Part shown: positions 3,454 to 27,006 of the stretch, piece by piece
Position numbering within the stretch: position 1 is the first letter of the stretch
Layout of the letters: every line of letters begins with the position of its first letter
Virus record (IMG/VR): IMGVR_UViG_3300043403_000102
Location: 18,089-82,088 of that record
DNA: 64,000 nucleotides
From: a virus
Direction: 5' to 3' (one strand)
Position numbers and translations under genes: made by a program
Notes under the pieces: model-generated
Told to the model about the DNA's origin: nothing
Databases searched by the model: none
The model's input: only the letters and a program-made list of their open reading frames with translations

Positions 3454-3459
3454 GATGAT

Positions 3460-5994: not shown

Positions 5995-5997
5995 GGG

Positions 5998-8547: not shown

Positions 8548-8550
8548 GGC

Positions 8551-9092: not shown

Positions 9093-9095
9093 GAC

Positions 9096-11154: not shown

Positions 11155-11186
11155 GTCCCGAAAGTGACATGTCTACCGGGGGCCTG

Positions 11187-11960
11187 TCAACGTACATTGA
11201 TGTTGGCGAAGGACGGTCCCGTGTTGCTCGCCTGAGCAGCCCCGCCCCAACGGGACATCGCCTCGCGGCAGAACCACATTGCCATGACGGTGTCGGCCTG
11301 CCCGCTCATGGGGTAGTTGTTGACCTCGGTGGTCCAGACGCACCAGCCGCACTGACAGGTCGGGGGGTGGCCCTCGAACTCGTCGGCGGGGATGACCCAG
11401 GCCTTGTTGGCGAACTCGACTTCTAGGCTGGGCAGGCCGACGTCGACCTTGTGCTTGTTGGCCCCGGTGGTGAAGCTTTCGATCTTGTACCAGAACGAGG
11501 CATCGACGCCGCCGACGTTCCGAATCCAGTCGATGATGGACTGCTGGTATCCGTTGTTCTCGACCATGATGTGCCGCACGTTCGGGTAGCTGGCGTGCAT
11601 CTGGGCCAGGTTCCGGGCGGTCTCGGGGCTGGTCCAGGCACCCCTTCGGATCTCCAGAGGGTAGCGGCGCTGGGTCGTGGGGTCGATAGACGCGGCAAAG
11701 ATGACGTTACCGGCCCGCGTGGCCCCTGCCAAGTCGACACCCATGAACGTGGGCCAGCCGCTGCGCTGGATATTCCCCAGGGCCACGCCGTGGCTGTAGC
11801 AGTTCTTGAAGCTCGGGAACAGCCGCTCCTCGTCCGTGAAGGCGCGCATCTGGAACCCACGGGCAAAGCTGCGGGGGTTCTCCTGCTGCTCCCTGCGAAG
11901 GCGGTCGGCGGGCCAATGCTCCCAAGGAGCCAGGGCAGGCAGCCGGTGCGTGTGGTTCAT
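11187..11960 (-). CDS. terL: large terminase, nuclease half (split TerL)
   Basis: 257 residues. Residues 11-50 contain the linker typical of the end of the ATPase domain (WPADRLRREQQENPRSFARGF, then FTDEERLFP). The RNase H-like nuclease follows: GVDLAGA (Asp about 76), MVENNG (Glu about 134) and SGQADTVMAMWF (Asp about 223). The three acidic metal ligands are in the right order. There is no ATPase domain; that half is at 25477-26337. The start ATG overlaps the upstream stop (ATGA), so this is a gene with its own start rather than a decayed remnant. Confidence 0.85.
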   Translation of the reverse strand: MNHTHRLPALAPWEHWPADRLRREQQENPRSFARGFQMRAFTDEERLFPSFKNCYSHGVALGNIQRSGWPTFMGVDLAGATRAGNVIFAASIDPTTQRRYPLEIRRGAWTSPETARNLAQMHASYPNVRHIMVENNGYQQSIIDWIRNVGGVDASFWYKIESFTTGANKHKVDVGLPSLEVEFANKAWVIPADEFEGHPPTCQCGWCVWTTEVNNYPMSGQADTVMAMWFCREAMSRWGGAAQASNTGPSFANINVR

Positions 11961-12199
11961 TCCGTCAGTGTAACAACTGTCGTGACCGATGCCCGGAACT
12001 GCAGGAGCAACGCATCGATGAAGGGCTTCCCGTCTTTGGGAGCCACGACACCTCCTGCAGCCATGCTGTAAATCCCGTCATCCATGTCAGCGGAGAACTC
12101 AGGGTCATTGTAGGTCGCTTCGACCGTTCCGTCCTTCAGCAGCTCGAAGGAAGCCAGGCACTCGGGGGACTCGCCAACGGTCATCACGTTGTAGGTCAT
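11957..12199 (-). CDS. small hypothetical protein, 80 aa
   Basis: MTYNVMTVGESPECLASF..., acidic, coupled by ATGA overlaps to the large fusion gene upstream and to the terminase nuclease downstream. The centre (DPEFSADMDDGIYSMAAGG) is acidic and the C-terminus hydrophobic. Function unknown. Confidence 0.55.
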   Translation of the reverse strand: MTYNVMTVGESPECLASFELLKDGTVEATYNDPEFSADMDDGIYSMAAGGVVAPKDGKPFIDALLLQFRASVTTVVTLTE

Positions 12200-14706
12200 T
12201 TAGTTCTTACCGTCCCTTCTTCAGAATCTGACCCGCTCCAGGGAACAAGTTTTGAGTATGGAATGTCTTTAGGGCGCGGGCTCCAGCTTGGCGCCACTTC
12301 TGCCATCACGGCTTGCACCGTGCGCTGCGTGTCCTTGCCCAAGTCCAGCTCGGGGGACTCGTGAGAGAACTTGAAGCTGCCCTCTTCGCCGTGAAACTCG
12401 ACCATGCGGGGGTTGGCCTTAAGGGCCTCCAGACGAACGATGACCCCGTGGATCGCTTCGGGCTCCAGGCCGTGAGCCTTGAGGGTACTGGCAATCTGGT
12501 GGGTGTCCGCATGCTCGATCATCTTGGATACCTCCGGGTGTAGCGGGCCCTCGACGTGGCGGTCCACACGGGGCAACTTCGCCATATGGGAGGGGACGAT
12601 GGAGGTGGGGAACGCCAACCCGTGGTCTATGAGCAGGGGCGTGCGGGTCTTACCCTCGTAACTGGGCATCCAGTTCCGGCTGTGCCGATCGGTGTTGCCG
12701 ATAATGAGATCGAAGGCGCGCATCTTTTGGAACCCGACGGGGTCGTCTTGGATTCCCTCCTGGGCTCTCGCGTGGGCGTTCGCGGTCAAGGTCTTCTCCA
12801 CGTCCGCGGGCTTCACACCGAATTTAGCCGCGTTGGCGTTGTAGCGTTCCTGTAGGGCCGCCGTTAATTCCTTCGGTAATCCCTTCGGCTGGTGGGCCGC
12901 CTGGACCGAGCCAATGCCTTCGGGGAGGTCCTCGCGCACCACGGTCGGGGGCACCATGTGCCCGAGGCCGAGGACTTGGGAAAGGGCGTAGGCAGCGACC
13001 TCCCGCTTGTAGCTGGTACCCGGGGTCACGTCAGGACGCATACGCGGCTCCCCCGTGGCAGGCTTGTAGTAGGCCTGAGAGCCGTCAGGGAAGTGTAACC
13101 GTTGGGTAACGGACACCCCCTTCTCCCCTTCCTTAAGGGGCTCGGCCTTTACGGGGGCCACGAACTCTAGCTTCGCGATTCCTTTGTCGATGACGTGGTC
13201 GGAGTCCTTCACATCCTCCTCACTCACCCAGTAGTGCCACTGATGGGACTTGTCCCCTATCTTGCGCTCGCGCTCGACCAGCACGAGGTTCTCACGCCCT
13301 GCCATGCGTGCGACCCCCGGCATTGTCACGCTAGGCACGTCGCCAGGTGTGGTGGTCTCGACGACAGAGCGCACAGGCTCTGCATGCACGTGAACCGCGG
13401 CCCCTATACGCACGAGGCGTGACTCGACGACAACCCAGTTCATTCCTCGGAACACCGCCGCAAGGTACAGGTCTTTGCGAGTGCCATAGTCCGCGGCGTA
13501 GGCGTGCTCCCAGCAGTCGATGGCCAGCAACACTGGGCACCCCGCCATGACGCCGTCGGCATGCTTCTCGACGAGGTTCACCCGAGGGCGCCGTTCGACA
13601 AGATCCCAAACCACCAGCACCCACCCATCGGTCGAACCGCAGGCCGCCCTTAGGTCCCGCGTGAAGTTCTCCCAAGACCCCCAGGACCTCTCGACCGCTT
13701 GAAGAAATACAGGCAAGGGGTGGCCGGGCACCGACGTGAACTGCTCGAAGTAGAACTCGTGCAGGGTCACGGCATTGTAGGCGCTGGGCTCAGACCGCAG
13801 GAGCTCGCCGTGCTCGGCCCACCCCATGCCTGAAAAAGGTTGCACCGCGCGGGGCATCCCGAGCCGATCGGCCACGGTCCCCCGCAGCGTCGTGTACGGG
13901 TCGGGCCTGCCTTGATAAATGTTCGTGGCGGCCTTGCCCCCGAGGGACTGCATGATGATGTCGACCGCTTCGAGCTTGGCCAGGGCCTCGGGCCACGCCG
14001 CATACTCGGCACGCCAGTCAGGGGCCCCGCTATCGAGCCACCTCCCGAAGGCCTCGGCCCAGGCCTCCTCGGGGTGCTTCTGGGCGTAGTGAGCGGGGGC
14101 ATAGGTCAGGTATTCGACGAAGCCCCGGCTGCTGGTGTTGGGCTCTAGGGTGTCGTCGCGCTGGGGGTATGGGATCGTCGGATCTCCGAACGCCGCCAAC
14201 CACAGCGGGTTCGCGCCCAATTCGTACCCGAAGAACACCGCGTGACCCAGCTCATGACGAAGGCAGCGCAGCACCTGGTCAAAGGCATAGGCGAACTCCT
14301 GGGTCCGCGAGGCCAGGCGCCACAGTTCGGCCGTGGCCAGGAACCAGGGGACGTTGATTCTGACGCTCTTGTCCGAGGTCCAGAAGTCTTCCGTCCCCAG
14401 GTACCAGGTGGGCCAGAACGCAGGGGCAGGGGTCTTGTACGTGAACTCGAGCTGTACCAGGGCCAGGGCGTCTTTCAGCGGCCCCACCGCGGGGGCGATC
14501 GAAAGCTCCAGGTGCCTGACGGGGAACGCCAGCAGGGTGCTGGTTGCGGGCCCCCTGGCGGGTTCGGCCGTCAGGGGGTAGGAAGTCTGAATGGCGTTCA
14601 GACGGTCGACCGCACGTCCGTAAAGGGACAAGTGCTGGTCGAGCATGCGGTCACTGATTCCCGTCAGCGCCCCTCGTAGGTAGGAGAAGTCCCTTGCGAT
14701 TCTCAC
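12196..14706 (-). CDS. zincin / Fe-Mn SOD-like / PI3K-HipA-like kinase fusion
   Basis: 836 residues with three recognisable parts. Residues about 100-225 are a zinc metallopeptidase-like domain with HELGH at 151-155 and EEAWAEAF near 213. Residues about 290-432 match Fe/Mn superoxide dismutase: TLHEFYFEQF (His 316), GWVLVVWD, and IDCWEHAYAADYG (Asp 397, His 401), then RGMNWVVVESR. Residues about 525-780 look like a PI3K/HipA-type kinase: YYKP (Lys near 548), IIGNTDRHSRNW at 669-679 and LLIDHG (Asp 694). The position next to terminase, portal and MuF suggests a virion-carried polyvalent protein injected with DNA. Domain calls are by motif; the first SOD His ligand is uncertain (perhaps 299). 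Confidence 0.75.
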   Translation of the reverse strand: MRIARDFSYLRGALTGISDRMLDQHLSLYGRAVDRLNAIQTSYPLTAEPARGPATSTLLAFPVRHLELSIAPAVGPLKDALALVQLEFTYKTPAPAFWPTWYLGTEDFWTSDKSVRINVPWFLATAELWRLASRTQEFAYAFDQVLRCLRHELGHAVFFGYELGANPLWLAAFGDPTIPYPQRDDTLEPNTSSRGFVEYLTYAPAHYAQKHPEEAWAEAFGRWLDSGAPDWRAEYAAWPEALAKLEAVDIIMQSLGGKAATNIYQGRPDPYTTLRGTVADRLGMPRAVQPFSGMGWAEHGELLRSEPSAYNAVTLHEFYFEQFTSVPGHPLPVFLQAVERSWGSWENFTRDLRAACGSTDGWVLVVWDLVERRPRVNLVEKHADGVMAGCPVLLAIDCWEHAYAADYGTRKDLYLAAVFRGMNWVVVESRLVRIGAAVHVHAEPVRSVVETTTPGDVPSVTMPGVARMAGRENLVLVERERKIGDKSHQWHYWVSEEDVKDSDHVIDKGIAKLEFVAPVKAEPLKEGEKGVSVTQRLHFPDGSQAYYKPATGEPRMRPDVTPGTSYKREVAAYALSQVLGLGHMVPPTVVREDLPEGIGSVQAAHQPKGLPKELTAALQERYNANAAKFGVKPADVEKTLTANAHARAQEGIQDDPVGFQKMRAFDLIIGNTDRHSRNWMPSYEGKTRTPLLIDHGLAFPTSIVPSHMAKLPRVDRHVEGPLHPEVSKMIEHADTHQIASTLKAHGLEPEAIHGVIVRLEALKANPRMVEFHGEEGSFKFSHESPELDLGKDTQRTVQAVMAEVAPSWSPRPKDIPYSKLVPWSGSDSEEGTVRTK

Positions 14707-14719
14707 AGCGAGCAGGCTA

Positions 14720-15424
14720 TCAGACTTTGGAGGGCTTGGGCCACAGGATGCGTCGGGTACGACTACCGCTGGCCTGGCTCATGCGGGCCTCGCCACGGCT
14801 TAGGAACAGGACCTCACCGTCGGGGGCCTCGGCAATCTGATAGCCGCCTTGGGCGATCTCGAAGGGCTCCAGCTCGTGCGTGTCCAGGTACGTCGTGCGG
14901 CCGTCGTGGGGCTTCAAGATGGGGAGGCCGAACCACTTAGGCAGCACGAAGTCACTCACGGGGATGATGCGGGTCTGCCCGAGCAGCTCGACCTCAATGC
15001 CGTATTCGTCTCGCTGAACCGGGTCACCAAGTTCGACGTAGTACGTGCGTCCCTTGGGCCCGTCGACCTTGCGGTCGAGCCTGGGGTTGCCGAACATCTC
15101 AAGGGCCTCATGCGACAGGGTCACGCTCGGGTGCTTCGACTGGCTCATGTCCACGAGACCGAAAACCCGCGACCCGAGCTGCGAATGATAGCCCGCGCTG
15201 TCGGCGTTGCCGTCGTCGTCGACGATGCCCAGGATGGCGGCCTGGTCCGCAGGGATACGCTCGGCGTGGCCATAGAAGGCCATGCCGGGGGTAACGCCCC
15301 AAAGCGGGGCCACATGCTCGCGGAGCTGCTTGGCAACGGCCGCAACCCACCACGCCACCTCATCGTCTTTGGCGACGGTCGAGTGGTTATAAACGGCGAT
15401 GTGCGTGATGGGTTGGTCGGTCAC
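14720..15424 (-). CDS. putative metalloprotease-like protein (SHEALE motif)
   Basis: 234 residues from GTG 15424. The strand-helix part with AFYGHAERIP and GYHSQLGSRVFGLVDM leads to VTLSHEALEMFGNPRLD at 102-117. There HEALE resembles an abbreviated zincin site found in phage proteins with SHE-x-LE-x(3)-P. The C-terminal half is beta-rich (VELGDPVQRDEYGIEV; FVLPKWFG). It lies next to the larger zincin fusion, so two zincin-like genes are adjacent. Proteolytic activity is inferred, not shown. Confidence 0.5.
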   Translation of the reverse strand: MTDQPITHIAVYNHSTVAKDDEVAWWVAAVAKQLREHVAPLWGVTPGMAFYGHAERIPADQAAILGIVDDDGNADSAGYHSQLGSRVFGLVDMSQSKHPSVTLSHEALEMFGNPRLDRKVDGPKGRTYYVELGDPVQRDEYGIEVELLGQTRIIPVSDFVLPKWFGLPILKPHDGRTTYLDTHELEPFEIAQGGYQIAEAPDGEVLFLSRGEARMSQASGSRTRRILWPKPSKV

Positions 15425-15795
15425 TTGAACGTGTAGCCCTTCTCGGACAGGAACATCTTCGCGTGGGAGGCCGCCGCGCTGCTGACGGTGTCGGCCTTGT
15501 TGGCATCGGCAGCCTCGCCGAACTGCTTACCCGAGGACTTAACAACACACGCGATCACGTCCTCGGTGATGCCGACGGCGGGGTTGATGAGGCCGATGAG
15601 GCAGCCAGTCCAGCCGCCCACCCCCACGAGGCAATCATTGATCTTGGGAATGAGGGGGATCCCAAAGTCGCGTACGGCCTGGGTCGAGCAGTCGATGATG
15701 CCGGGGTGTCCGGGGCCAGGCATCGGCTGGGGACAGCCCGCCACCGCACTGAGTCCAAGAAGAACGGCAAGGATCCGACGGATGATGTTGTTCAT
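15421..15795 (-). CDS. small lipoprotein
   Basis: 124 residues. The N-terminus is a lipoprotein signal: NNIIRR, a hydrophobic core LAVLLGLSAVAG and Cys 21, followed by a Pro/Gly-rich linker (PQPMPGPGHPG). The mature part holds three further cysteines and a hydrophobic helix (GGWTGCLIGLINPAVGI). An outer-membrane lipoprotein could be an outer spanin or a superinfection-exclusion factor; the transglycosylase and a second lipoprotein lie close upstream. The gene overlaps its neighbour by GTGA. Confidence 0.65.
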   Translation of the reverse strand: MNNIIRRILAVLLGLSAVAGCPQPMPGPGHPGIIDCSTQAVRDFGIPLIPKINDCLVGVGGWTGCLIGLINPAVGITEDVIACVVKSSGKQFGEAADANKADTVSSAAASHAKMFLSEKGYTFK

Positions 15796-15815
15796 CCCGA
15801 AAGCCTACCACGAAC

Positions 15816-16049
15816 CTAAGACGGCTTGTCGTCCGTGGCGGGGATGCCGATGGTGGCAGCCATCAACACGCGCATCTCGAAGGGGACCTCGCGGGCGTCA
15901 TAGACCACCGAGAAGCCGTGCTCGCTGCAGAACGTGATCGTCATGTGCTTCACGGGCGCCCCCTCGGTGGCCACGTTCAGGTAGTCGGGCAAGGCGCTGA
16001 GAAAGCTGCGGAGCTTCTCGCGGCGCGATCGTTCGGCGTCGTCCTTCAT
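15816..16049 (-). CDS. small hypothetical protein, 77 aa
   Basis: Starts MKDDAERSRREKLRSFL at ATG 16049, overlapping the stop of the DUF3310-like gene (TGATG). The N-terminal half is a charged helix; the C-terminal half is alpha/beta with HMTITFCSEHGFSVVYDA and ends in an acidic tail. Function unknown. Confidence 0.55.
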   Translation of the reverse strand: MKDDAERSRREKLRSFLSALPDYLNVATEGAPVKHMTITFCSEHGFSVVYDAREVPFEMRVLMAATIGIPATDDKPS

Positions 16050-16408
16050 CAAAGTCCCTCTAGGGTAGCAAGTAAGATCTGTTCAATGGATTCGAGGTCG
16101 TCCTGCTCGGCCGCGATAACCACCGCGGTGGTCATGTCGTCGTCGGGGGACTTTAGCTGAAGCTGCTCGATGGCGTTGGTGGCCCGCTCGTCTAGCTCAC
16201 TCGGGGGCAGCTTCCGGTTGCTCATCTCGCGACGCAGGTACCAGAGCGCCTTCTCGATGTCCTGACGGCTGGTGCCCTTGCTGCCGTGGCGCCAGACGTA
16301 CTTGATGACGTTGGCGAGGTTGAACTGAAACCCCTCGACGACATCAATGCACTCGACGCCACTGATGTGGCCCGTGTAATGTCGGGGGTGATGAACGGGG
16401 TCGCTCAT
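16049..16408 (-). CDS. DUF3310-like protein (phage nucleotide-kinase-like family)
   Basis: About 119 residues from ATG 16408 (MSDPVHHPRHYTG), overlapping the lipoprotein stop. The signature DPVHHPRHYT, GVECIDVVEGFQFNLANVIKYVWRHG and DIEKALWYLRRE is characteristic of DUF3310, a small phage family often labelled nucleotide kinase although its reaction is unproven. The C-terminal third (DDMTTAVVIAAEQDDLESIEQI) is an extra helical extension. Length is slightly above the usual core. Confidence 0.75.
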   Translation of the reverse strand: MSDPVHHPRHYTGHISGVECIDVVEGFQFNLANVIKYVWRHGSKGTSRQDIEKALWYLRREMSNRKLPPSELDERATNAIEQLQLKSPDDDMTTAVVIAAEQDDLESIEQILLATLEGL

Positions 16409-17037
16409 CACTTCCATCCCGGCAGGGCGTAGTTTCTGATAACGTTGGGGGAACGGGTCACGGCCTCGGAAACTTCTATCCGGTAGAGCTGCTGCTCTTT
16501 GGGGTTGGGAACCGTGTGCCTGCACATCTGCCAGGCAGAGGTCACGTTGCCCGAGGAGCAAGCCATGACTTGCGCCCCCCACAAGATTCGGATCAACGGC
16601 AACGTCACCGAGCTCTCCGCACGCCAGCGGATGATGACGTCGGTCGGTATGGCGCTCCCCGTTCGCGGAGCCCAAGCCACCTCGGTCTCAACGCCGCTCA
16701 GCATGTAATTCCCCCCGATCAAGAACATCACGGTGGCCACAGGCACCGCCTGGGTCCCGGAATCCGCCGGGGGCTTGGGAGGGGCCGGGGGAGGGGCCGG
16801 GCTCGCGTCTGGGGCCCGCTCGGGGACTTGGGGACCCGGTACCCCAGAATCCTGGGGAACGGGGCTCTGAGGCGTTCCTATTGCGAACGGGGCGGCCTGG
16901 ACCCCCGCGTCTATCAGGGGGGCGGTCTCGAACTCCGCGTTATCCCCAGCGCACCCCGTCAAGAGCCGTAGCCCCAACGTAGCGCCAAGCAGGCCTCGAA
17001 CCCTACGCCAACCCGACGGACCTTTTGAAGCGTTCAT
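16408..17037 (-). CDS. lipoprotein with proline-rich linker
   Basis: 209 residues. The N-terminus has a basic start, a hydrophobic stretch GLLGATLGLRLLTG and lipobox Cys 29. Residues 60-95 are Pro/Ala/Asp-rich (DASPAPPPAPPKPPADSG), a spacer suited to crossing the periplasm. The C-terminal domain is beta-rich with two cysteines (VMACSSGN; AWQMCRH). AGGAGGG precedes ATG 17037, and a copy of the nine-member promoter motif lies 20 bases upstream. An outer-membrane lysis or exclusion role is plausible. Confidence 0.7.
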   Translation of the reverse strand: MNASKGPSGWRRVRGLLGATLGLRLLTGCAGDNAEFETAPLIDAGVQAAPFAIGTPQSPVPQDSGVPGPQVPERAPDASPAPPPAPPKPPADSGTQAVPVATVMFLIGGNYMLSGVETEVAWAPRTGSAIPTDVIIRWRAESSVTLPLIRILWGAQVMACSSGNVTSAWQMCRHTVPNPKEQQLYRIEVSEAVTRSPNVIRNYALPGWK

Positions 17038-17058
17038 GCTGTGTGCCCTCCTGAAGTG

Positions 17059-17084
17059 TATTTAGGGGGCGTTCTCAAGTTTAC
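17059..17084 (-). promoter_or_regulatory. repeated promoter motif, copy 1
   Basis: On the minus strand it reads GTAAAC, 13 bases, CTAAATA(C). It lies 22 bases before the lipoprotein ATG at 17037, leaving room for an AGGAGGG ribosome site. The TAA inside CTAAATA is also the stop codon of the upstream gene. Confidence 0.7.
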
Positions 17085-17289
17085 TCCGCAGGTCAATCAC
17101 CCGGATCCAACAAGCCGCAATCCAGTACCCCGGGATTGCGGGGTACCCCCTCCCCACGGGATGAAGCTCAATTTCCCCTACGGCCCCCGCATCACAGTAC
17201 CGACGATAACGGTGGTTGTTCCCCACGTCGGCGAACCCGCACGGGGGCTTACACCCGGGGACGTGGAACTTGTCGCGTTCGTTGCTCAA
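17062..17289 (-). CDS. small cysteine-containing protein, 75 aa
   Basis: I start at TTG 17289, whose TTGA overlaps the transglycosylase stop, with AAGG upstream. The product runs MSNERDKFHVPGCKPPCGFA and contains CKPPC, YC and AAC, with His residues between, so it could bind zinc. It resembles the microproteins of 20-27 kb in size and Cys/His content but not clearly in motif order. The alternative is a longer frame from ATG 17343. Confidence 0.5.
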   Translation of the reverse strand: MSNERDKFHVPGCKPPCGFADVGNNHRYRRYCDAGAVGEIELHPVGRGYPAIPGYWIAACWIRVIDLRSKLENAP

Positions 17290-17708
17290 GTGTTCGACCT
17301 TCGATGAGCGAGCACCCGCCGCGCATAGGGGCTCGGCCTGCATCGACCCCCGTTGTATTGGGTCAGGGCATGCAACTCGACCCCCTCGCACACGTCGAGT
17401 GCCCTCTTCAAGAGGCGCATCCCGCACCGCACATTGAGGCGCAGGTTGCGCAGACCCCCTCGCTCGGCCCGGCAATACTCGATGGCTCGCCCGCTGGGGG
17501 CCACCTGCATCACGCCAAGCTCCCCGCGCTTGCCGACGACGTCCTGTCGATAGGCGCTTTCATGGGCCGCCACCATGATGGCCAGGTCGGCGGGTACCCC
17601 TATGCGCGTGGCCTCGGTGAGGATGATGGGCGCCAGCACGCGCACCCTTGCTATGGGTGCTCGCGGCGACGCCGTCAGCATCATGGCTATGATTCCTGCG
17701 ATGGTCAT
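17286..17708 (-). CDS. lytic transglycosylase (SLT-like)
   Basis: 140 residues with a hydrophobic N-terminus (TIAGIIAMMLTASP) that could be a signal or anchor. The goose-lysozyme/SLT fold is visible: LAIMVAAHESAYR (catalytic Glu), GKRGELGVMQVAP and HALTQYNGG. Several cysteines may form disulfides. It would cleave peptidoglycan, either as a second lysis enzyme or during entry or assembly. It lies beside two lipoprotein genes, some 35 kb from the amidase. Confidence 0.8.
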   Translation of the reverse strand: MTIAGIIAMMLTASPRAPIARVRVLAPIILTEATRIGVPADLAIMVAAHESAYRQDVVGKRGELGVMQVAPSGRAIEYCRAERGGLRNLRLNVRCGMRLLKRALDVCEGVELHALTQYNGGRCRPSPYARRVLAHRRSNT

Positions 17709-17734
17709 GGTCGCGTCAGTCTACAACGCATAAC

Positions 17735-18451
17735 TCATCGCCGCGAAAAGCTCATGTCCCAAACGTTGTGAACGATGTTCCGCTTCCAGTCCCAGATCGA
17801 AACCTGCTTAAGCCCCTTCGAGGTGAAGTGCGACAGCATGCAGTCTTTGGGGAATGGCTCGTCGCTGAAGCACAAACGTCCATTCAGGAAGTCGACCCCC
17901 GCTTTAGGGAACACGAGGTCGCGTGCCCAGTTGGACCCCGTCGATGAAGGAGTGAGCAAGAGGATCTCGGCCCCCTGCTCGGCCTCCTCCGCGCAACGCT
18001 TGGCCCAAGTAGGGGTGTCGTTGAACTCGCAGTTCAGCCACAGCAGACCCCCTATCTTGTGCCAGGGCCACGCGAAGGCATCGAAGCCCTCGGCCTTGGG
18101 GTCGGAGTTTTGGATCGTGTATTCGATCTTGACCTCGCGCCCTAGGCGGTGGTTCTTGGTGTTGTCCTCGATGGCACGCATGACGAAGGACGACGCATCG
18201 GCATTCGATGCCCCCTTAGTGACGAGGGCCTCGCCTATGGTCACAATCTCGGCGGTCGTGCATTCCCCGGATACCAGCGTCTCGGTGAACTCCTTGGGCG
18301 CGAAATACCGCGACGACTGCGTGTTCCCTGCATGCGCAGCGAGGTCGAAGCTGATGGGGCCGTACCGCGCGGTGACGGCAGCCATGAGGTTGTCAGGGGT
18401 GCGATAGTCCTGCTTGGACTTCACACCACTTGTGATACGTGGGCCGCTCAT
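17735..18451 (-). CDS. phage Dam-like N6-adenine methyltransferase, altered motif
   Basis: 238 residues resembling the phage DNA_N-6-adenine methyltransferase family: QDYRTPDNLMAAV, ISFDLAAHAGN, then LLWLNCEFNDTPTWAKRC, EILLLTPSSTGSNW and NGRLCFSDE. In the family the WLN is followed by PPY; here it is CEF, so the catalytic loop is changed and activity may be lost or altered. The protein otherwise spans the full domain. ATGA overlap couples it to the gene upstream. Confidence 0.75.
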   Translation of the reverse strand: MSGPRITSGVKSKQDYRTPDNLMAAVTARYGPISFDLAAHAGNTQSSRYFAPKEFTETLVSGECTTAEIVTIGEALVTKGASNADASSFVMRAIEDNTKNHRLGREVKIEYTIQNSDPKAEGFDAFAWPWHKIGGLLWLNCEFNDTPTWAKRCAEEAEQGAEILLLTPSSTGSNWARDLVFPKAGVDFLNGRLCFSDEPFPKDCMLSHFTSKGLKQVSIWDWKRNIVHNVWDMSFSRR

Positions 18452-19132: not shown

Positions 19133-19134
19133 CG

Positions 19135-19605: not shown

Positions 19606-19880
19606 CAGAACCCCGCCCCCGCGACGACAAAGATCCTATCTTGCCCGCAGACGTTGTTCCCAGACACTTCGCGGATCTCCTTCAGCTCCACTAGCCTGTC
19701 GAGCAAGGCCATGAAATAAAAGCGGTCTCCCGACCCAACGGTGTTAGAGACGACGTGGTACCCGTTAAAGGCCCCCGCAATACGCGAGGCTTTGTACGTG
19801 GCTTTGAGAACTTTAATAACGTCGCGCTGGCCGTTGTCGTCGAGCACTCGAGAACGCTCGGTCTGGTATGAATAAGGCAT
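19605..19880 (-). CDS. hypothetical protein, 91 aa
   Basis: Starts MPYSYQTERSRVLDDNG at ATG 19880, overlapping the stop of the gene upstream (TGATG). The pattern DVIKVLKATYKASRIAG, then FYFMALLDRLVELKEIREV looks like a winged-helix fold: three helices and a beta hairpin. A DNA-binding or modulating role is possible but unproven. Confidence 0.5.
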   Translation of the reverse strand: MPYSYQTERSRVLDDNGQRDVIKVLKATYKASRIAGAFNGYHVVSNTVGSGDRFYFMALLDRLVELKEIREVSGNNVCGQDRIFVVAGAGF

Positions 19881-20203
19881 CACGCGATCTCATCGGCGGG
19901 CGTGGCGGCGGCAATCGCAGCTTGCTCGGCCTTCATGGCGGCCCTGAACTGCTTCATCGCTTCGACGATGGTGACGACGACCTGCGCATGATGGGATTGG
20001 ATCCCCGTCGTAAGCGTGTCGCTCAGGGTGAGCATCGCCGCCACACGTCCCACCGAGGGCTCGACGGTGCTTATAAGATGCATGCACTGGTCGAGGAACC
20101 CAAGGTAATCGCGCACGACCTCCTCGACGGCATCTGGGGGCATATCGGGGATGTTGTGCTGAAGGGCGGACTCGAACAAGGCGACCATGGCTGATTTGCT
20201 CAT
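19880..20203 (-). CDS. hypothetical helical protein, operon leader
   Basis: 107 residues, MSKSAMVALFESALQHN..., almost entirely helical, with Ala/Val-rich heptads toward the C-terminus. It is the first gene after promoter copy 2: the TAAATAC box ends five bases before the ATG and no Shine-Dalgarno sequence fits between. The first three residues MSK are shared with the gene at 21880-22476, which has an identical start context. Confidence 0.55.
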   Translation of the reverse strand: MSKSAMVALFESALQHNIPDMPPDAVEEVVRDYLGFLDQCMHLISTVEPSVGRVAAMLTLSDTLTTGIQSHHAQVVVTIVEAMKQFRAAMKAEQAAIAAATPADEIA

Positions 20204-20209
20204 GCCTGG

Positions 20210-20235
20210 TATTTAGGGCGCCCCCTCGGGTTTAC
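20210..20235 (-). promoter_or_regulatory. repeated promoter motif, copy 2
   Basis: GTAAAC-N13-CTAAATAC on the minus strand, directly abutting the ATG at 20203 with only CAGGC between. If the box works as a -10 element, the transcript would begin at or next to the start codon. Confidence 0.7.
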
Positions 20236-20236
20236 C

Positions 20237-20572
20237 TCAGCGGAACGTCGTCAGGTGCTTTATCACCAGAGGCTCGGCCGCAGCCAGGCAGTCGGGGCAC
20301 GTCACCGTCTCGAATAGGTAGGTCCAAGGGGCGCGCTCGTTGGCCCCGCAGTAGTGGGCCTGGAACATGTGGTTGATGGGGCGCCAGTGAAGCACCTGCG
20401 GAGGCCTGAGCAGCTCGCGTGTCGTGAGGCGCGTGACCACGAGCGGGGGTAGCGGCTTGGCGCTGACGTCCCACCAGAACCGCCACCACAAGCGACGCCA
20501 ACCCCCGAGGGCCTCGAAGCGATGTCGGGCCAGGGCCAGCCTGCCTATGCGCAGCAGCCACGGGGAGGTCAT
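20237..20572 (-). CDS. microprotein-family member with basic N-terminus, 111 aa
   Basis: Start at ATG 20572, overlapping the stop of the next gene (ATGA). The N-terminal 60 residues are unusually rich in Trp/Arg (WRRLWWRFWWD). The C-terminal 50 residues carry the microprotein pattern: HMFQAHYCG, then TVTCPDCLAAAE, that is His, Cys and CxxC. It looks like a family member with an added amphipathic or membrane-active segment. Confidence 0.55.
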   Translation of the reverse strand: MTSPWLLRIGRLALARHRFEALGGWRRLWWRFWWDVSAKPLPPLVVTRLTTRELLRPPQVLHWRPINHMFQAHYCGANERAPWTYLFETVTCPDCLAAAEPLVIKHLTTFR

Positions 20573-20757
20573 AGCTTTATGTGCTCCCTGCACAGGGGGC
20601 AAAGTATCTCGGTGGACAAGGGCTTAGCTATTGCCAGTAGATCGGTGGGTACCTCGCGCACGCACCGCGCTTTGAACGTCGGTCCCGTTACCGGCCAATA
20701 AGCCTGCAAGTGCACGACGCCTTCTAAGATCTCACGCAGCTCATCGGCTTTTGTCAT
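20569..20757 (-). CDS. zinc-ribbon-like microprotein, 62 aa
   Basis: MTKADELREILEGVVHLQAY... ending LCPLCREHIKL. One Cys at about 32 and CPLC near the C-terminus plus VVH give the family arrangement of His, Cys and CxxC. Overlaps both neighbours by four bases. Function unknown. Confidence 0.55.
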   Translation of the reverse strand: MTKADELREILEGVVHLQAYWPVTGPTFKARCVREVPTDLLAIAKPLSTEILCPLCREHIKL

Positions 20758-21200
20758 GTTCGATCACCTATGTGGTTGGGGAAGACCGCGCCCGCGGGCA
20801 GCTCAGGCATGAGGCCATTCACCACCAAGAAATCCCGACAGCTATACCCCGAGAGCTCCCGGTACAGCAGCATAGCCGTGCGCAAGGGTTCGTCGTCGCG
20901 GAGCATCTCGATGACCTTCCTGCGGTGCCCGATGTCGACGTCGAAGTGTCCCGCGACGGCCACAGCCCACCGTGGCCCCCACCAGCGCATTTGATCATGA
21001 GCATTGCTATCCACGGCTATTGCCTCCTTCAACAAGGTTGGGATCGCCTTCGCAAGCAACATGCGCGTAGCCCCTAGCCTAACGTAATCGATGGCCTCCA
21101 TGTCGAGCTTGACCTGGTTGATGCGATGGCCAACCGTCGCCTCATGATCTGAGCGCAGACGGTACCTTACGCCGCAGATTGAACACGTGCCCTTGGCCAT
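20754..21200 (-). CDS. zinc-finger protein, 148 aa
   Basis: Begins MAKGTCSICGVRYRLRSDHEATVGH, a CxxC...H...H finger at the N-terminus. The rest is helical (LGATRMLLAKAIPTLLKEA; RRKVIEMLRDDEPLRTAMLLYRELSG). The N-terminal finger and length differ from the small array members. It could be a nucleic-acid-binding regulator. Function unknown. Confidence 0.55.
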   Translation of the reverse strand: MAKGTCSICGVRYRLRSDHEATVGHRINQVKLDMEAIDYVRLGATRMLLAKAIPTLLKEAIAVDSNAHDQMRWWGPRWAVAVAGHFDVDIGHRRKVIEMLRDDEPLRTAMLLYRELSGYSCRDFLVVNGLMPELPAGAVFPNHIGDRT

Positions 21201-21203
21201 TGG

Positions 21204-21647
21204 TCAGAGCCCCGGAAGATTGGCTTGCCCTGCGTCCTGGTACTTGACGAGGACCTTCGTCGCTTTCTTAACGGCGCGCCAACGCTTCATGAGAAGTCTG
21301 ATTGAGTCGATGAGGTCGCCGTAGTTAGGGCTAGGCAACCTGACGTCGGCCCATGCGTCTGCGTCGCCCGCGTAGGCCGTGAACAACTCGAGGCCCCGTC
21401 GATGCATGCGGTTGCGCGTGTCTTCGTCGGCATAGTAACTCAGCACCTCGAAGGCCTTTGCTCGCCACGTAACGAGGTGACCATCAACGCCCCAGTCGCA
21501 GGCGAAGGCGAGCATGTAAGGCGGAACGTACGTGCCCCGGTGAATCCCGCCTTGGATCTTGATGAAGGTACCAGGGGCCATGTTGTTGCTGGCCGCCCTG
21601 GCACAGCCGTTCGTGACCTTGATGAAGCCCTCGGGAATCTTTGCCAT
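21204..21647 (-). CDS. hypothetical protein, 147 aa
   Basis: Start at ATG 21647 (MAKIPEGFIKVTNG), one base after the upstream stop. It has a small N-terminal beta part, a helix-rich centre (AKAFEVLSYYADEDTRNRMHRRGLEL) and a basic C-terminus (LLMKRWRAVKKATKVLVKY). No known family recognised. Confidence 0.5.
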   Translation of the reverse strand: MAKIPEGFIKVTNGCARAASNNMAPGTFIKIQGGIHRGTYVPPYMLAFACDWGVDGHLVTWRAKAFEVLSYYADEDTRNRMHRRGLELFTAYAGDADAWADVRLPSPNYGDLIDSIRLLMKRWRAVKKATKVLVKYQDAGQANLPGL

Positions 21648-21648
21648 G

Positions 21649-21873
21649 TCAGCCCCTCCTGATGCTGTTAACGAGCACGCCGCATTCCTTGCACAAGGTG
21701 GTCCCCGGCAGGACAATGCGCTCGGCAGGGACGAGCCAGGCATAGGGGACCATGTTGCCACAAAGCGTATGCGTAAGGCCCATCCCCGCGTAGGAATCCC
21801 CCCTGCGCCTTTCGTGAACGACCCCTGCCAGTTGGGCGTCCATGTATCGGGCTATGCGTTCCCTCTCAAGCAT
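21649..21873 (-). CDS. zinc-ribbon-like microprotein (TLCG type), 74 aa
   Basis: MLERERIARYMDAQLAGVVHERR..., then HTLCGNMVPYAWLV and TLCKECGVLV. This is the canonical array pattern: N-terminal helix, VVH, TLCG-x-x-VP-x-x-W, then CxxC. It lies upstream of the main array and is probably a dispersed copy. Confidence 0.65.
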   Translation of the reverse strand: MLERERIARYMDAQLAGVVHERRRGDSYAGMGLTHTLCGNMVPYAWLVPAERIVLPGTTLCKECGVLVNSIRRG

Positions 21874-21879
21874 GTAGGC

Positions 21880-22476
21880 TCAGCAGGAGCAGGAGAAGAA
21901 GTTACCTCGGTCGGGGCCGACGTTCGCGCCCGTATAGATCGCGTAGTGCTCCCAGAAGTCATCACGCACTCGGTGCCCTTCCCAACGACCGCCGTCACTC
22001 AGGTAGTGGTCGTGAGCTAGGTACATGTCAGCCGCGTGCATGAACTCCTTAAGGTCGAGGCCTGCGGCTTCGGCCTCCTCGACCATCACGGCCCCCGCGC
22101 GCAGGAAGCGATCGCGGCTCTCGCTGTCCTCGACTGGGGGTGAGTCAATCTGGGGGTGCGACCACACGTGGCGCAGGGACGTGATCTTGCGGGGTAGGAC
22201 CACGAACCAGAAGTGCTCGCCTGGATCTACGTGGCGCGGAATGAAGGGGTCCACGATACCAAGGGCGTCGGCGGCATCGACGCACGCCACTGCGTCTATC
22301 CCGTTGCTCTGAAGGGTGACGTGCTGACCTCGCTGCAACCGATGAGCCGCACGGGCAGGAAGTACGGCGAGGTGGATGGCATCGCGTTTCTCCTTGTCGG
22401 TGATAATGGTCCCTAGGGTTTCGAGGGCGTCGGTGGAGACACTGCGCTTGTCGGCGCTCTTGGTTGGCTTGCTCAT
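21880..22476 (-). CDS. conserved phage hypothetical protein, 198 aa
   Basis: Acidic protein. Recognisable blocks are KRDAIHLAVLPARAAHRLQRGQHVTL, DALGIVDPFIPRHVDPGEHFW and PRKITSLRHVWSHPQ, followed by a helical part and the ending NFFSCSC. I believe similar proteins occur in other large phages without assigned function. The start is fixed by promoter copy 3, whose box ends five bases before the ATG. Confidence 0.65.
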   Translation of the reverse strand: MSKPTKSADKRSVSTDALETLGTIITDKEKRDAIHLAVLPARAAHRLQRGQHVTLQSNGIDAVACVDAADALGIVDPFIPRHVDPGEHFWFVVLPRKITSLRHVWSHPQIDSPPVEDSESRDRFLRAGAVMVEEAEAAGLDLKEFMHAADMYLAHDHYLSDGGRWEGHRVRDDFWEHYAIYTGANVGPDRGNFFSCSC

Positions 22477-22482
22477 GCCTGG

Positions 22483-22508
22483 TATTTAGGGCAACTATTC
22501 GGGTTTAC
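22483..22508 (-). promoter_or_regulatory. repeated promoter motif, copy 3
   Basis: GTAAAC-N13-CTAAATAC, followed by CAGGC and the ATG at 22476. The context is identical to copy 2 for more than ten bases around the start, and the first codons (MSK) are shared too. The motif overlaps the end of the upstream gene. Confidence 0.7.
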
Positions 22509-22725
22509 CCCGAGCCAGCAGGTTGCTGAACTCCTCGATCACCATGAACTCGGCGGCGGCTAGGGCCTCGTCGAGGCTGCCTGCGAAGTATTGCCCTCGG
22601 GCTTCGCGCAGCGTGGTGATCTGCCAGTTGCGCTCTCCTTCGGGCCCGCCGACCATTGCGCGCTGGGGGAGGATCCAAAGCTCATAGCTGCCGTGGCCTT
22701 GCCGGTACCAGTCGCGGTGTCTCAC
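22495..22725 (-). CDS. hypothetical protein, 76 aa
   Basis: MRHRDWYRQGHGSYELWILPQ..., with a Trp/Tyr-rich N-terminus and a helical C-terminus (SLDEALAAAEFMVIEEFSNLLA). The pattern of a short beta hairpin then a helix with DEALAAAE resembles small DNA-mimic or adaptor folds, but nothing is certain. Coupled by a 4-base overlap to the membrane protein upstream. Confidence 0.55.
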   Translation of the reverse strand: MRHRDWYRQGHGSYELWILPQRAMVGGPEGERNWQITTLREARGQYFAGSLDEALAAAEFMVIEEFSNLLARGKPE

Positions 22726-22856
22726 TCGTTGTTACCGTTCGGTAACGCCATGGCCAGCGATCCTAGGACGATGCCGAACTCCCACAGCTTGAAGCCGAGG
22801 GTGCCGACGTCAAAGAAGACGATGCCTGCGAGGGTTCCGACGATGAGCATCTTCAT
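22722..22856 (-). CDS. small membrane protein, 44 aa
   Basis: Start ATG 22856 (MKMLIVGTLAGIVFF), overlapping the stop of the first array gene. About 35 of 44 residues form one or two hydrophobic segments (TLAGIVFFDVGTLGFKLWEFGIVLGSLAMAL). It ends in a short polar tail. It could be an inner-membrane factor; no function is known. Confidence 0.5.
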   Translation of the reverse strand: MKMLIVGTLAGIVFFDVGTLGFKLWEFGIVLGSLAMALPNGNNE

Positions 22857-23080
22857 GTGTGCAATTTCCGAGTGAGCCTTGCTATGCGAAGGCACTCCTC
22901 GCAGATGTGAATGTCGATCGACGGCTCCACCGCGTAAGCCCACTTCAAAGCGACGAAGTCCCCGCACAGCGTTTTGAAGTGACTGAGTATCGGGTTATGC
23001 CCTAGGGGTTCGCTGCTGAAGTGGTAGTCCTGCGCAAGGTCAGCACGCATCCTGCGGGCAGCCTTCTCCTCCTTGGTCAT
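22853..23080 (-). CDS. zinc-ribbon microprotein, array member 1
   Basis: 75 residues from ATG 23080. It has a charged N-terminal helix (TKEEKAARRMRADLAQDYHF), then FKTLCGDFVALKWAY and HICEECLRIARL. The putative zinc ligands are the His of YHF, the Cys of TLCGD and the CxxC pair. Very similar to the members at 23316 and 23077. Four-base overlaps join it to both neighbours. Confidence 0.7.
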   Translation of the reverse strand: MTKEEKAARRMRADLAQDYHFSSEPLGHNPILSHFKTLCGDFVALKWAYAVEPSIDIHICEECLRIARLTRKLHT

Positions 23081-23319
23081 GGTATCTTGCTCCGGGTTCT
23101 TAGGCGGCCTTCGGATAGGTGCGCACAGTCTGAGCACATCGTGTTACTCCGACCTGCAGGCATCGTGTAAGCTGACCACTGCAGCGGAGCGATGTCCCCG
23201 CATAGCGTGCGAAAATAGCCCGAGTGCAGATTGACGCTCGGGTGTTGATGGTGGGTGTAATGATAAAGCCGCGTGAGCTCTGCGCGCATCGAACACGCAG
23301 ACAGGGCCTCCGCGGTCAT
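23077..23319 (-). CDS. zinc-ribbon microprotein, array member 2
   Basis: 80 residues, MTAEALSACSMRAELTRLYHYTH..., then FRTLCGDIAPLQWSA and TMCSDCAHLS. The family order is kept: helix, YHY, TLCGD, W, CxxC. The region between the two Cys positions differs strongly from its neighbours, so the family keeps a scaffold and varies its surface. Confidence 0.7.
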   Translation of the reverse strand: MTAEALSACSMRAELTRLYHYTHHQHPSVNLHSGYFRTLCGDIAPLQWSAYTMPAGRSNTMCSDCAHLSEGRLRTRSKIP

Positions 23320-23582
23320 ACTGCTTCCTTCCTGTAAACTGTAGGGTCTCTTTCACCACGGGCCAAACGTTCGCAATCCAGGCACAAATCATCAGCCCTC
23401 AACCTTGACGTGGGTGTTGCATATAGAACGGACCACTCAACGGGGACAATGTCCCCACAAAGGGTCTTAAAGTAGCGAGACATACCGCTGTGGTACGTAT
23501 CCCTGCGCTGACTGAAGTGATACACCCTTACAAGGTCCGCGTGCATCCTGCGGGCGGCCTTCTCTTCCTCGGTCAAGGCCAT
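23316..23582 (-). CDS. zinc-ribbon microprotein, array member 3
   Basis: 88 residues, MALTEEEKAARRMHADLVRVYHFSQ..., then FKTLCGDIVPVEWSV and DLCLDCERLARGE. Its N-terminal EEKAARRM-x-ADL is shared with member 1, which indicates recent duplication. It overlaps member 4 by ten bases. Confidence 0.7.
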   Translation of the reverse strand: MALTEEEKAARRMHADLVRVYHFSQRRDTYHSGMSRYFKTLCGDIVPVEWSVLYATPTSRLRADDLCLDCERLARGERDPTVYRKEAV

Positions 23583-23818
23583 GTGATCTGCCCTGGTATC
23601 CGTTCACCGACTACCACGCGCGCGCAGTCAGGGCACATCTGGTCGGAGGCGTTGACCGTGTTTGGGTACGAACAGACCCAGCGCGATGGAATAAGCACCC
23701 CGCACTTCGAGCGAAAGAAGTGCCCTTCCATCGCCGGGATGGCGATGTCGGCGTAGTGGTAGACCTCGGCCATGTTCGCCGTCATTAACGACACTCGAAA
23801 GTCTTGGTTGGTGATCAT
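23573..23818 (-). CDS. zinc-ribbon microprotein, array member 4
   Basis: 81 residues from ATG 23818. It begins MITNQDFRVSLMTANMAEVYHY, then FRSKCGVLIPSRWVC and QMCPDCARVVVGERI. SKCG replaces TLCG; the other positions are kept. Coupled by ATGA to the gene upstream. Confidence 0.65.
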   Translation of the reverse strand: MITNQDFRVSLMTANMAEVYHYADIAIPAMEGHFFRSKCGVLIPSRWVCSYPNTVNASDQMCPDCARVVVGERIPGQITWP

Positions 23819-24090
23819 AAACCTCTGCCCACAAGCCCGCCCATCAGGATGCTGTAACACAGGGGGCAGATTAGGTCGGCCAAGATCCTGTCCTTCGATT
23901 TAATCCAGGGGCCCCTAGGCACGTACGCTTCACACCAGGCCCTATAGAACGCTTGGCCCTCGTCGTTGTACATGGCAGGGTAGCCCATCCAGATGTGGAC
24001 GACCTGAGCCAACTCGGCTTCCATCGTGAACTTGACGGCGTCGAAGTCCGCGATGGCTTGGGTGGAGTACTTAGGTGGTGGCGAGCCCAT
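23815..24090 (-). CDS. zinc-ribbon microprotein, array member 5 (operon leader)
   Basis: 91 residues, MGSPPPKYSTQAIADFDAV..., with VVHIWMG, FYRAWCEAYVPRGPW and LICPLCYSIL. It is a divergent member: WCEAYVP in place of LCGDVVP. It is the first gene behind promoter copy 4, with five bases between the box and its ATG. Confidence 0.6.
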   Translation of the reverse strand: MGSPPPKYSTQAIADFDAVKFTMEAELAQVVHIWMGYPAMYNDEGQAFYRAWCEAYVPRGPWIKSKDRILADLICPLCYSILMGGLVGRGL

Positions 24091-24096
24091 GCCTTG

Positions 24097-24122
24097 TATT
24101 TAGGGCAGCCATTCAGGTTTAC
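24097..24122 (-). promoter_or_regulatory. repeated promoter motif, copy 4
   Basis: GTAAAC-N13-CTAAATAC in the middle of the microprotein array, ending close before ATG 24090. The TAA of GTAAAC is the stop codon of the upstream array gene at 24119-24364. Confidence 0.7.
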
Positions 24123-24364
24123 CCAGGGAACGAGGCACACTCGGGGCACACGGGGCTGTCGATGCCCACTGACGTCCCTTCAATCACGAGGACGCCACAC
24201 AGGCCTTCGAGCAGGCCTTGCCCTATCGGACGTAGGCGCAGGTGCCGCACGCGATCCGTGTTCTCAAGGACTCTGCGCATGCGCTCGACCCGATTGCGCG
24301 CTCGACGCTCCTTAGCAGCACGGCGCTTGCGGCTGACGACTTGGATCTTCTGGCTCTTGGTCAT
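24119..24364 (-). CDS. zinc-ribbon microprotein, array member 6
   Basis: 81 residues from ATG 24364. The N-terminal half is very basic (KRRAAKERRARNRVERMRRVL). The C-terminal half has VRHLRL, GLCGVLV and PVCPECASF. The basic helix sets this copy apart and would suit nucleic-acid binding. Confidence 0.6.
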   Translation of the reverse strand: MTKSQKIQVVSRKRRAAKERRARNRVERMRRVLENTDRVRHLRLRPIGQGLLEGLCGVLVIEGTSVGIDSPVCPECASFPG

Positions 24365-24591
24365 CTCAGCGCCCGCCTTGCCATGCAGTCCTCGCATCGA
24401 ACCAGCGTCTCGTCCCACCTCATACGGTGAGGGCTAAGGGTGATCCATTTGCGAGGCACCACGTCACCGCACAGTGTTTCGACAGGCTCGTCGTCAACAT
24501 CCTCAGTGGGCCTTGACGATAATAAATGCTTGGGAAAATGGGACACCCCCACCAACTCAGCACGCATCAAGGACGCGGGGTTCATCTTCAT
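24361..24591 (-). CDS. zinc-ribbon microprotein, array member 7
   Basis: 76 residues, MKMNPASLMRAELVGVSHF..., then VETLCGDVVPRKWITL and VRCEDCMARR. This copy is close to the family consensus. Overlaps both neighbours by four bases. Confidence 0.7.
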   Translation of the reverse strand: MKMNPASLMRAELVGVSHFPKHLLSSRPTEDVDDEPVETLCGDVVPRKWITLSPHRMRWDETLVRCEDCMARRALR

Positions 24592-24833
24592 AGGCCCCTC
24601 AAGTAGGGCACATGAATGCGATGGTATTCGCGCAAGCAGTCAGGGCACCAGTACGGGGTCTTGTCTGTGACCTCGTGAAAGCGCGTGGTGATCCACTTGA
24701 ACGTCACGACCTCGCCGCACAAGGTTTCGATGGGGTGCTGGTCATACAGTTGCTCTCGGGACAAGACATGCCTGTGGTAGTGAAATACCCCGCGAAGGTC
24801 GGCACGCATAAGGTTTGCCTGGTCCATCACCAT
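24588..24833 (-). CDS. zinc-ribbon microprotein, array member 8
   Basis: 81 residues, MVMDQANLMRADLRGVFHYHRHVL..., then IETLCGEVVTFKWITT and WCPDCLREYH. It resembles member 7 in LMRA-(E/D)-L-x-GV and KWIT, so the two are probably a recent tandem pair. Confidence 0.7.
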   Translation of the reverse strand: MVMDQANLMRADLRGVFHYHRHVLSREQLYDQHPIETLCGEVVTFKWITTRFHEVTDKTPYWCPDCLREYHRIHVPYLRGL

Positions 24834-24843
24834 TTCCCCTGCT

Positions 24844-25053
24844 TCATCCTACGACTGCCGTTCCATCTAGGCAGGCGGGGCACCAGGGGTATTCGAGGGA
24901 CGCGAATCGCTCCTCGGCAGTGACGATGACCCACGAACGGTGAACCACATCGCCGCAAAGCGCTTTCGTAAGTGGTTTCGCCACCTCACCAACGGCAATG
25001 AAGTGCTTCACACCTATGAGGGTATCTCGCATGAGTGCGGCTCGCGCGTTCAT
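24844..25053 (-). CDS. zinc-ribbon microprotein, array member 9
   Basis: 69 residues from ATG 25053. It begins MNARAALMRDTLIGVKHF, then KALCGDVVHRSWVIV and PWCPACLDGT. All four putative ligands are present. Confidence 0.7.
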   Translation of the reverse strand: MNARAALMRDTLIGVKHFIAVGEVAKPLTKALCGDVVHRSWVIVTAEERFASLEYPWCPACLDGTAVVG

Positions 25054-25250
25054 CGGGCCTGCCAAAGCTGGAGGCACTCCGCGCACTTGATGTCCTCGGG
25101 GAAGTGCACGATGTGATTGCTCCCTACCGATAACTTTCGCCCACAGTACGCCCATGAAGTTGCGGCGTGCACAGAGTACGCCCTTACGATATGAGGCCCG
25201 GTCAGCAAGGCCTCTACTCGCGCGGCGGCTTTCAGATCATCAAAGGTCAT
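25050..25250 (-). CDS. zinc-ribbon microprotein, array member 10
   Basis: 66 residues from ATG 25250. It begins MTFDDLKAAARVEALLTGPHIV, then WAYCGRKLSVG and IKCAECLQLW. A more divergent copy: YCGRK in place of LCGDV. Confidence 0.65.
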   Translation of the reverse strand: MTFDDLKAAARVEALLTGPHIVRAYSVHAATSWAYCGRKLSVGSNHIVHFPEDIKCAECLQLWQAR

Positions 25251-25480
25251 CCGCCCACCGGGTCCTGCCTCTTTATCACCCCGTGAAGGGCCAGGCATTC
25301 GAGGCAGGCGGGCGCTGGCATGATCCACGGGTTGAACTCGGAGAACCACTGAGCCGGGACGTAGTCCCTGCATAGCGTCTCTATGAGGGGGGCTGTGCAG
25401 GCTCGGCCCGGGTACCTCCTGAGATGCTTAACCCCGTTAAGGGCCGCCCGCATAATACCCGCCTGCACCTCCTTGGTCAT
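25247..25480 (-). CDS. zinc-ribbon microprotein, array member 11
   Basis: 77 residues, MTKEVQAGIMRAALNGVKHL..., then IETLCRDYVPAQWFSE and PACLECLALHG. TLCRD replaces TLCGD. Its start overlaps the stop of the terminase ATPase gene by four bases, so the array is translationally coupled to a packaging gene. Confidence 0.7.
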   Translation of the reverse strand: MTKEVQAGIMRAALNGVKHLRRYPGRACTAPLIETLCRDYVPAQWFSEFNPWIMPAPACLECLALHGVIKRQDPVGG

Positions 25481-26337
25481 CCGCCCACCAGCTTGAACGG
25501 TGCGGTCTGAGGCCCCCCAACGAGCGGGTACGAGATAGGGTCAGGCGCCCCGATGAGTTCCTGCTCGATGACGTCGCACCCCTGGGATACGCGCTGGATG
25601 AGCGTGCACCAGCCGGGGCGCTGCATAAGGTGATGGGTGGCGTCGTCCAGGTGCCAGGGCGTCCCGATGTACAGCACGCGGGCGTCGGGCTCTAGGCGGC
25701 TCAACCACGTGCTCTCGATGAACTGAAGGACCTTGGACCGCTGGGTGGAGTCGAAGCTGTTCTTCTGGTCGACGACGTCGTCAAAGATCATGATGTCCGC
25801 TCGTCCACCCACGCCCGTCGTGAGGATGCCTCGGGCGTGAATGCTCGGGTCGATGGCCCCGCCCGTACGCTCCAAGTAGATCTCATGGCCCGCCCATTTG
25901 CGACCTCGACGGATGCCAGGGAAAATGCCCTTGAAGGCTGCGGTCTCGATGAGGGCCTTGGCCCTCTCGACTCGTTTGGTGGCGCTGCTGTCGTCGTTGG
26001 TGATGACCTTGATTCGGAGGTTCGGATCTCTACCCAGGGACCACGCGATAAGAGGCACCGCAAGCGTGGAGCTTTTACCGTGACCGAAGGGCGCCATGAT
26101 CATGGCCTTGAGTCCACGGGACCAGCAGTACTTAAGGTGAAGGATCCACTGTATGTGGATGGGGCTTAGGCGCAGTGGATGGCCGTGGTCGTCCTGGACC
26201 ACACGCTCGATGAACAGACCGAGGTCCCCCTTGGCTGCGTCGGAGGCGCGGGCCATCGTTGCATACATCAGCAGGAGCTTGCGCCGCTGGGCCAGGGGCA
26301 ACATGTCCGCGATGGTCGTTGTGGTCGTCTCAGCCAT
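25477..26337 (-). CDS. terL: large terminase, ATPase half (split TerL)
   Basis: 286 residues. Walker A is APFGHGKSS at 82-90, Walker B is IMIFDD at 182-187, and the coupling motif is YIGTPWH at 223-229. An N-terminal helical region with LRLSPIHIQWI resembles the adenine-binding area of terminases. The protein ends at residue 286, where the nuclease domain would begin; the missing nuclease is at 11187-11960. No intein residues are visible at the C-terminus (ends PFKLVGG). TerS lies upstream, as expected. Confidence 0.9.
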   Translation of the reverse strand: MAETTTTTIADMLPLAQRRKLLLMYATMARASDAAKGDLGLFIERVVQDDHGHPLRLSPIHIQWILHLKYCWSRGLKAMIMAPFGHGKSSTLAVPLIAWSLGRDPNLRIKVITNDDSSATKRVERAKALIETAAFKGIFPGIRRGRKWAGHEIYLERTGGAIDPSIHARGILTTGVGGRADIMIFDDVVDQKNSFDSTQRSKVLQFIESTWLSRLEPDARVLYIGTPWHLDDATHHLMQRPGWCTLIQRVSQGCDVIEQELIGAPDPISYPLVGGPQTAPFKLVGG

Positions 26338-26545: not shown

Positions 26546-26551
26546 CCGGGG

Positions 26552-26999: not shown

Positions 27000-27006
27000 C
27001 ACTTTG

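Follow-up and report, generated by a model that had tools for sequence, protein, structure and literature searches.

The two terminase genes

The DNA considered here is a 64,000-nucleotide window, bases 18089-82088 of the linear 82,088-base virus record IMGVR_UViG_3300043403_000102, and its subject is the large terminase (TerL). In phages generally, TerL consists of an N-terminal ATPase domain, a flexible linker and a C-terminal endonuclease domain and forms a ring on the portal (PMC7617512), a pentameric one in T4 (PMC8589836). Here the ATPase and nuclease domains are found not on one chain but on separate chains, encoded by two genes of the same minus strand (Table 1), with the nuclease gene lying 13,516 nt downstream of the ATPase gene.

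Table 1. Terminase genes and neighbouring features in the window
Feature	Position	Strand	Evidence or remarks
Portal protein (SPP1 gp6-like), downstream of nuclease in clade	6889..8547	minus	Pfam PF05133, E 2e-10; synteny
ParB-like/DNA methyltransferase, between nuclease and portal	9667..10944	minus	Profile match, synteny
TerL RNase H-like nuclease half	11187..11960	minus	257 aa; D76, E134, D223; H198/C202/C204/C207 motif
Small gene, stop overlapping nuclease start (ATGA)	11957..12199	minus	
Intervening stretch, 13.5 kb, mostly small accessory genes	11961..25476	minus	Synteny comparison
Protein (836 aa) whose matches are metallopeptidase-like, superoxide dismutase C-terminal and PI3/4-kinase-like	12196..14706	minus	Pfam, synteny
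TerL ATPase half	25477..26337	minus	286 aa; Walker A APFGHGKSS, Walker B IMIFDD, motif III IGTPW
Putative small terminase (TerS), upstream of ATPase	27503..28348	minus	Weak PHROG small-terminase matches, E 0.054

A first reading of the sequence alone (below, the sequence-only reading) had proposed this separation, and profile searches bear it out. The two proteins make complementary matches to a single 760-position TerL profile, phrog_38, the ATPase half to positions 266-471 (E = 3.8e-37) and the nuclease half to positions 489-628 (E = 1.3e-11). The ATPase half also matches the NCBIfam model termin_lrg_T7 (E = 7e-22, below that model's cut-off), and its profile finds the TerL structures 4bij/8dgc in the PDB (E = 6e-17); the PDB profile search gave no match for the nuclease half. 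Pfam by itself detects next to nothing in either protein. Each half has its own start and is coupled to its neighbours, as had likewise been noticed: the stop codon of the ATPase gene overlaps the start of the next gene (GGATGACC) and the ATG of the nuclease gene overlaps the stop of the preceding one (GGAATGAAC), so that both halves are closely packed among their neighbours, with overlaps of a few bases. A second complete terL elsewhere in the genome, which the sequence-only reading had named as evidence that would count against it, was not found: in the whole 82,088-base record phrog_38 matches only the two halves at E-values up to 10, and phrog_2 and phrog_9, which represent other TerL families, match nothing.

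Fused and split relatives

Searches that started from the nuclease, and from alignments of the two halves, collected 18, 42 and 73 loci from IMG/VR plus a single GTDB contig, and the full records were scanned with both halves in order to call each one fused or split. Among the records used for the tree, TerL is fused in 37, which provides the fused counterpart that the sequence-only reading had suggested looking for, and split into separate genes in 27. The fused relatives are single proteins of 510-570 residues; profiles of the split halves match their N-terminal (E ~1e-75) and C-terminal (E ~1e-70) parts, which identifies the halves as those of TerL. In 13 records besides the window the halves lie on the same strand kilobases apart, more than chance would produce.

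Among named phages the nuclease has no match; there are only distant matches to TerL, and the gene records that were opened are all of full-length genes. A search of plasmids for the family found none. PHROGs does contain two half-length TerL profiles, phrog_4758 (243 positions) and phrog_5573 (250 positions). Since, in addition, phage annotators presumably label the ATPase and nuclease domains of TerL separately on occasion, databases may already contain isolated split TerLs that have drawn no comment. In a contig from a Sumerlaeota metagenome-assembled genome (L119, 1436-4096), about 1 kb interrupts the nuclease domain after its first 55 residues.

Position of the cut

Alignment of fused and split forms places every split in the interdomain linker. 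Between the matched domains there are 5-12 residues in the closest fused relatives, as in ECES-pfkgkf-IPLWE. Where the protein is split, its ATPase stops just past the ECES-side block and the nuclease starts a few residues ahead of the IPLWE-side block, so the ends flank this short linker, where the sequence-only reading had put the cut. Among three related records the same cut point is seen in both states, G080 being fused with a 50-residue linker and G054 and G077 split there. Judged from these alignments the conserved TerL protein sequence is fully retained across the split with none missing, a stronger statement than the earlier one that little had been lost.

The position of the cut also bears on whether the halves might be rejoined after expression, by a split intein or by trans-splicing of a split group I/II intron. 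Such an origin is not without precedent, since TerL is a frequent host of inteins and introns (PMC5050341, PMC10448857, PMC12363816) and one relative of the window, G003, does contain an intein, though inside its Walker A motif. However, the ATPase ends at about the linker and the nuclease half carries only some 14 residues ahead of its conserved start, which leaves no room for intein halves; N- and C-intein halves were sought at the cut in the window and none were found, in agreement with the sequence-only reading. An Rfam search of the window gave no self-splicing intron, and 13.5 kb of genes separates the pieces. In relatives with adjacent halves, moreover, stop and start codons overlap and each half has its own start. 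Rejoining by either route is therefore highly improbable and we reject it. The G003 intein (L071 7571-9622, minus strand) is of LAGLIDADG type and forms a large in-frame insert within Walker A of the ATPase half; in G060 (L245) the ATPase match is broken at the same motif inside one 666-residue frame.

Conservation and selection

The catalytic residues picked out by the sequence-only reading prove to be invariant among the aligned relatives, fused and split alike: Lys88 of Walker A and Asp186-Asp187 of Walker B in 48 relatives for the ATPase, and Asp76, Glu134 and Asp223 in 52 for the nuclease. The nuclease half, a homologue of the C-terminal part of fused TerL, is predicted to be an RNase H-like enzyme with an acidic triad. 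Pairwise ratios of nonsynonymous to synonymous polymorphism (pN/pS) are 0.24-0.62 for the nuclease, the maximum being that of G025/G027, and 0.27-0.42 for the ATPase, with both halves mostly near 0.3-0.5; the values are rough, since high G+C depresses synonymous rates. On this measure both halves are under purifying selection. They are intact in the relatives, so that the decayed fragments which the sequence-only reading had allowed for are not what is seen. Conservation of both peptides is one of the two features expected of a genes-in-pieces enzyme, the other being that both are functional.

These results also dispose of the suggestion that the window contains a chimeric contig, formed as an assembly artefact, or a decaying pair of terL pseudogenes. 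The record derives from a metagenome, where such an artefact might arise, but the arrangement recurs with shared synteny in the 13 further records, window positions 2927-16743, a region spanning the nuclease gene, recur with 100% identity in another IMG/VR contig, of 13.8 kb, and the halves show purifying selection and intact catalytic residues. Chimera or decay, which we reject, would be the least credible of the explanations considered.

Four records of two lineages, differing at 137 of 790 nt, share a frameshift in the nuclease gene (L014 4082-4870, L015 9995-10780, L016 3003-3790 and L073 8540-7750, the last on the minus strand). A TAG follows codon 37 and coding continues in the -1 frame; pN/pS is 0.26 before the shift, 0.14 after it and 2.1-2.7 in the wrong frames. 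At the site there is an identical hairpin, CTAACCCCCGCTC-ATTC-GAGCGGGGTTAG (-18.8 kcal/mol), which is absent from all other IMG/VR contigs. A programmed frameshift is possible.

Phylogeny of the split

In a 40-row tree the window falls in a clade of 16 rows with a support of 97.9 in the Shimodaira-Hasegawa-like approximate likelihood ratio test, and all rows for which both halves are seen are split. The same picture comes from a 68-row tree, in which the core has a support of 95-98 and five state changes are required overall. Constraining all split members to a single clade is weakly rejected (approximately unbiased test, p = 0.036). Taken together, these results indicate that the split is old and stable within the window's clade, and that the TerL family has probably gained it, or lost it again, on more than one occasion. 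The sequence-only reading made too little of the split, which runs through a whole clade; the family has undergone several changes of state, and both the distance between the halves and their order vary. Sequencing frameshifts are an unlikely cause of the split in the close pairs that replicate it (G035/G040, G030/G036 and G054/G077); G033 and G015 are single records without a replicate.

A probable two-chain large terminase

We consider it probable that terL underwent fission at the linker, that both halves are functional and that a two-chain large terminase packages the DNA of these phages. An ancestral terL would have been cut, anciently, within the stretch that joins the two domains, with function kept by both halves; in the window's clade the genes would then have drifted apart, TerS and ATPase to one side and nuclease and portal to the other, with accessory genes between them. 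Since both halves are conserved, the packaging machine is very probably assembled from separate parts. On the portal the ATPase chains would make up the ring that translocates DNA, and nuclease chains of their own would dock on it non-covalently to make the initiation and termination cuts. The sequences themselves establish the pair of genes, the cut within the linker, the conserved catalytic residues, purifying selection and matching trees, and the three TerL profiles reveal no further TerL. Assembly in trans, as the sequence-only reading had it, is likely, while the binding of the two chains, a pentameric ring and the use of the halves in packaging we infer.

The distance matrices of ATPase and nuclease are correlated in 20 split records (Mantel r 0.84, 0/5000 permutations), as they are in a control of 31 fused records (r 0.80), and matched distances of this kind would fit continued joint use of the halves. 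Some considerations weigh on the other side. Shared vertical descent alone also yields congruent ATPase and nuclease trees. The three TerL profiles leave some TerL families uncovered and, the records being metagenomic and linear, a TerL beyond an assembled end is still conceivable for any single record.

The nuclease could alternatively be an independent cutting enzyme, brought in by the portal or only when packaging starts and ends and never a stable part of the motor, with the ATPase translocating alone in the manner of phi29 gp16. As a packaging ATPase gp16 works with no active nuclease covalently attached; it is of a different family and is not known to have a partner nuclease gene. In the window's clade the nuclease gene has remained with the portal, away from the ATPase, and the ATPase with the putative TerS, as such a division of labour might lead one to expect. 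Nevertheless, the TerL family to which the ATPase belongs is otherwise two-domain and the same clade includes adjacent, overlapping ATPase-nuclease gene pairs, so we think this alternative rather unlikely. More tentatively, the two-chain terminase may be extended to a three-protein one comprising TerS, ATPase and separate nuclease, in which the stoichiometry and timing of ATPase and nuclease are uncoupled and the nuclease joins the ring only for cutting; we hold this to be possible but doubtful.

Comparison with known systems

Fused TerL, as represented by phrog_38 and the T7-like NF033889, has the same two domains, catalytic motifs and domain order, but as one polypeptide rather than as two from two genes. 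Interrupted terL genes are also known. In ICP1 (PMC10448857) and the Jug phages (PMC12363816) terL is split by group I introns, with splicing backed by RNA data, and Campylobacter phage IBB_35 has a terL with an intein plus an intron (PMC3322345); the ATPase domain often hosts inteins, the P-loop included (PMC5050341). Like the present case, these are terL genes in two pieces, but there the pieces are close together and splicing restores the full protein, whereas here kilobases separate them, each half has a start of its own and no splicing element was found. A further comparison is with a phage ribonucleotide reductase, an essential enzyme which, as reported by Friedrich et al. 2007 (cited through PMC10448857 and PMC3322345), has been fissioned and works as two peptides. 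According to those accounts a homing endonuclease gene lies at the split in the reductase; in the present case no such gene was recognised where terL is split, and its halves lie well apart. In the literature searched, which mostly does not extend to subscription journals, no description of a two-gene, dispersed TerL was found. On the genomic evidence, then, this is a real, conserved and clade-wide fission of an essential motor protein in environmental, uncultured phages.

How the ATPase and nuclease domains communicate, and whether they need a covalent link, is an open question in motor mechanics. Phages with split TerL are natural experiments in which the tether has been severed and both parts retained, and mixing the purified halves at known ratios would address how many nucleases are needed per ring. 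There is also a warning for TerL-based phage taxonomy and for counts of TerL, both of which will miss or double-count these phages.

Gene order and neighbours

The usual order in the clade is TerS, ATPase, accessory genes, peptidase/superoxide dismutase-like gene, nuclease, ParB/methyltransferase, portal and MuF. Synteny shows the ATPase tending to travel with the putative TerS while the nuclease keeps to the portal side. A TerS homologue lies immediately upstream of the ATPase in G002, G003, G004, G012 and G049, a position that backs the weak assignment in the window; in G012 the order is reversed, TerS and ATPase standing together downstream of the nuclease. In most of the clade the metallopeptidase/superoxide dismutase-like gene lies close to that of the nuclease.

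The halves are usually 5-18 kb apart in the clade, and most members have 1.7 to 17.9 kb between ATPase and nuclease; next to the 13.5 kb of the window, separations of 5.5, 8, 10.5, 13, 13.9, 15.1, 15.3, 15.7, 15.8, 16.9 and 17.9 kb were recorded in relatives. The halves adjoin each other in G004 and G005, where the frames overlap stop to start and each half has a start. The intervening accessory stretch differs in both content and length among relatives. In G036 (L107 1097-2545, minus strand) a TnpB-like protein, with a Cas12f1-like TNB domain and OrfB_IS605, is encoded between the ATPase and nuclease genes. The small gene between the halves in G013 (L078 2000-2360) resembles, by eye, the Acb2 cyclic-nucleotide sponge family. 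Around the ATPase gene of the window itself (23077-27355, minus strand) there are about a dozen small genes of 70-110 residues in which a C-x-x-C motif recurs close to the C-terminus; the array has the look of a single small family duplicated in tandem.
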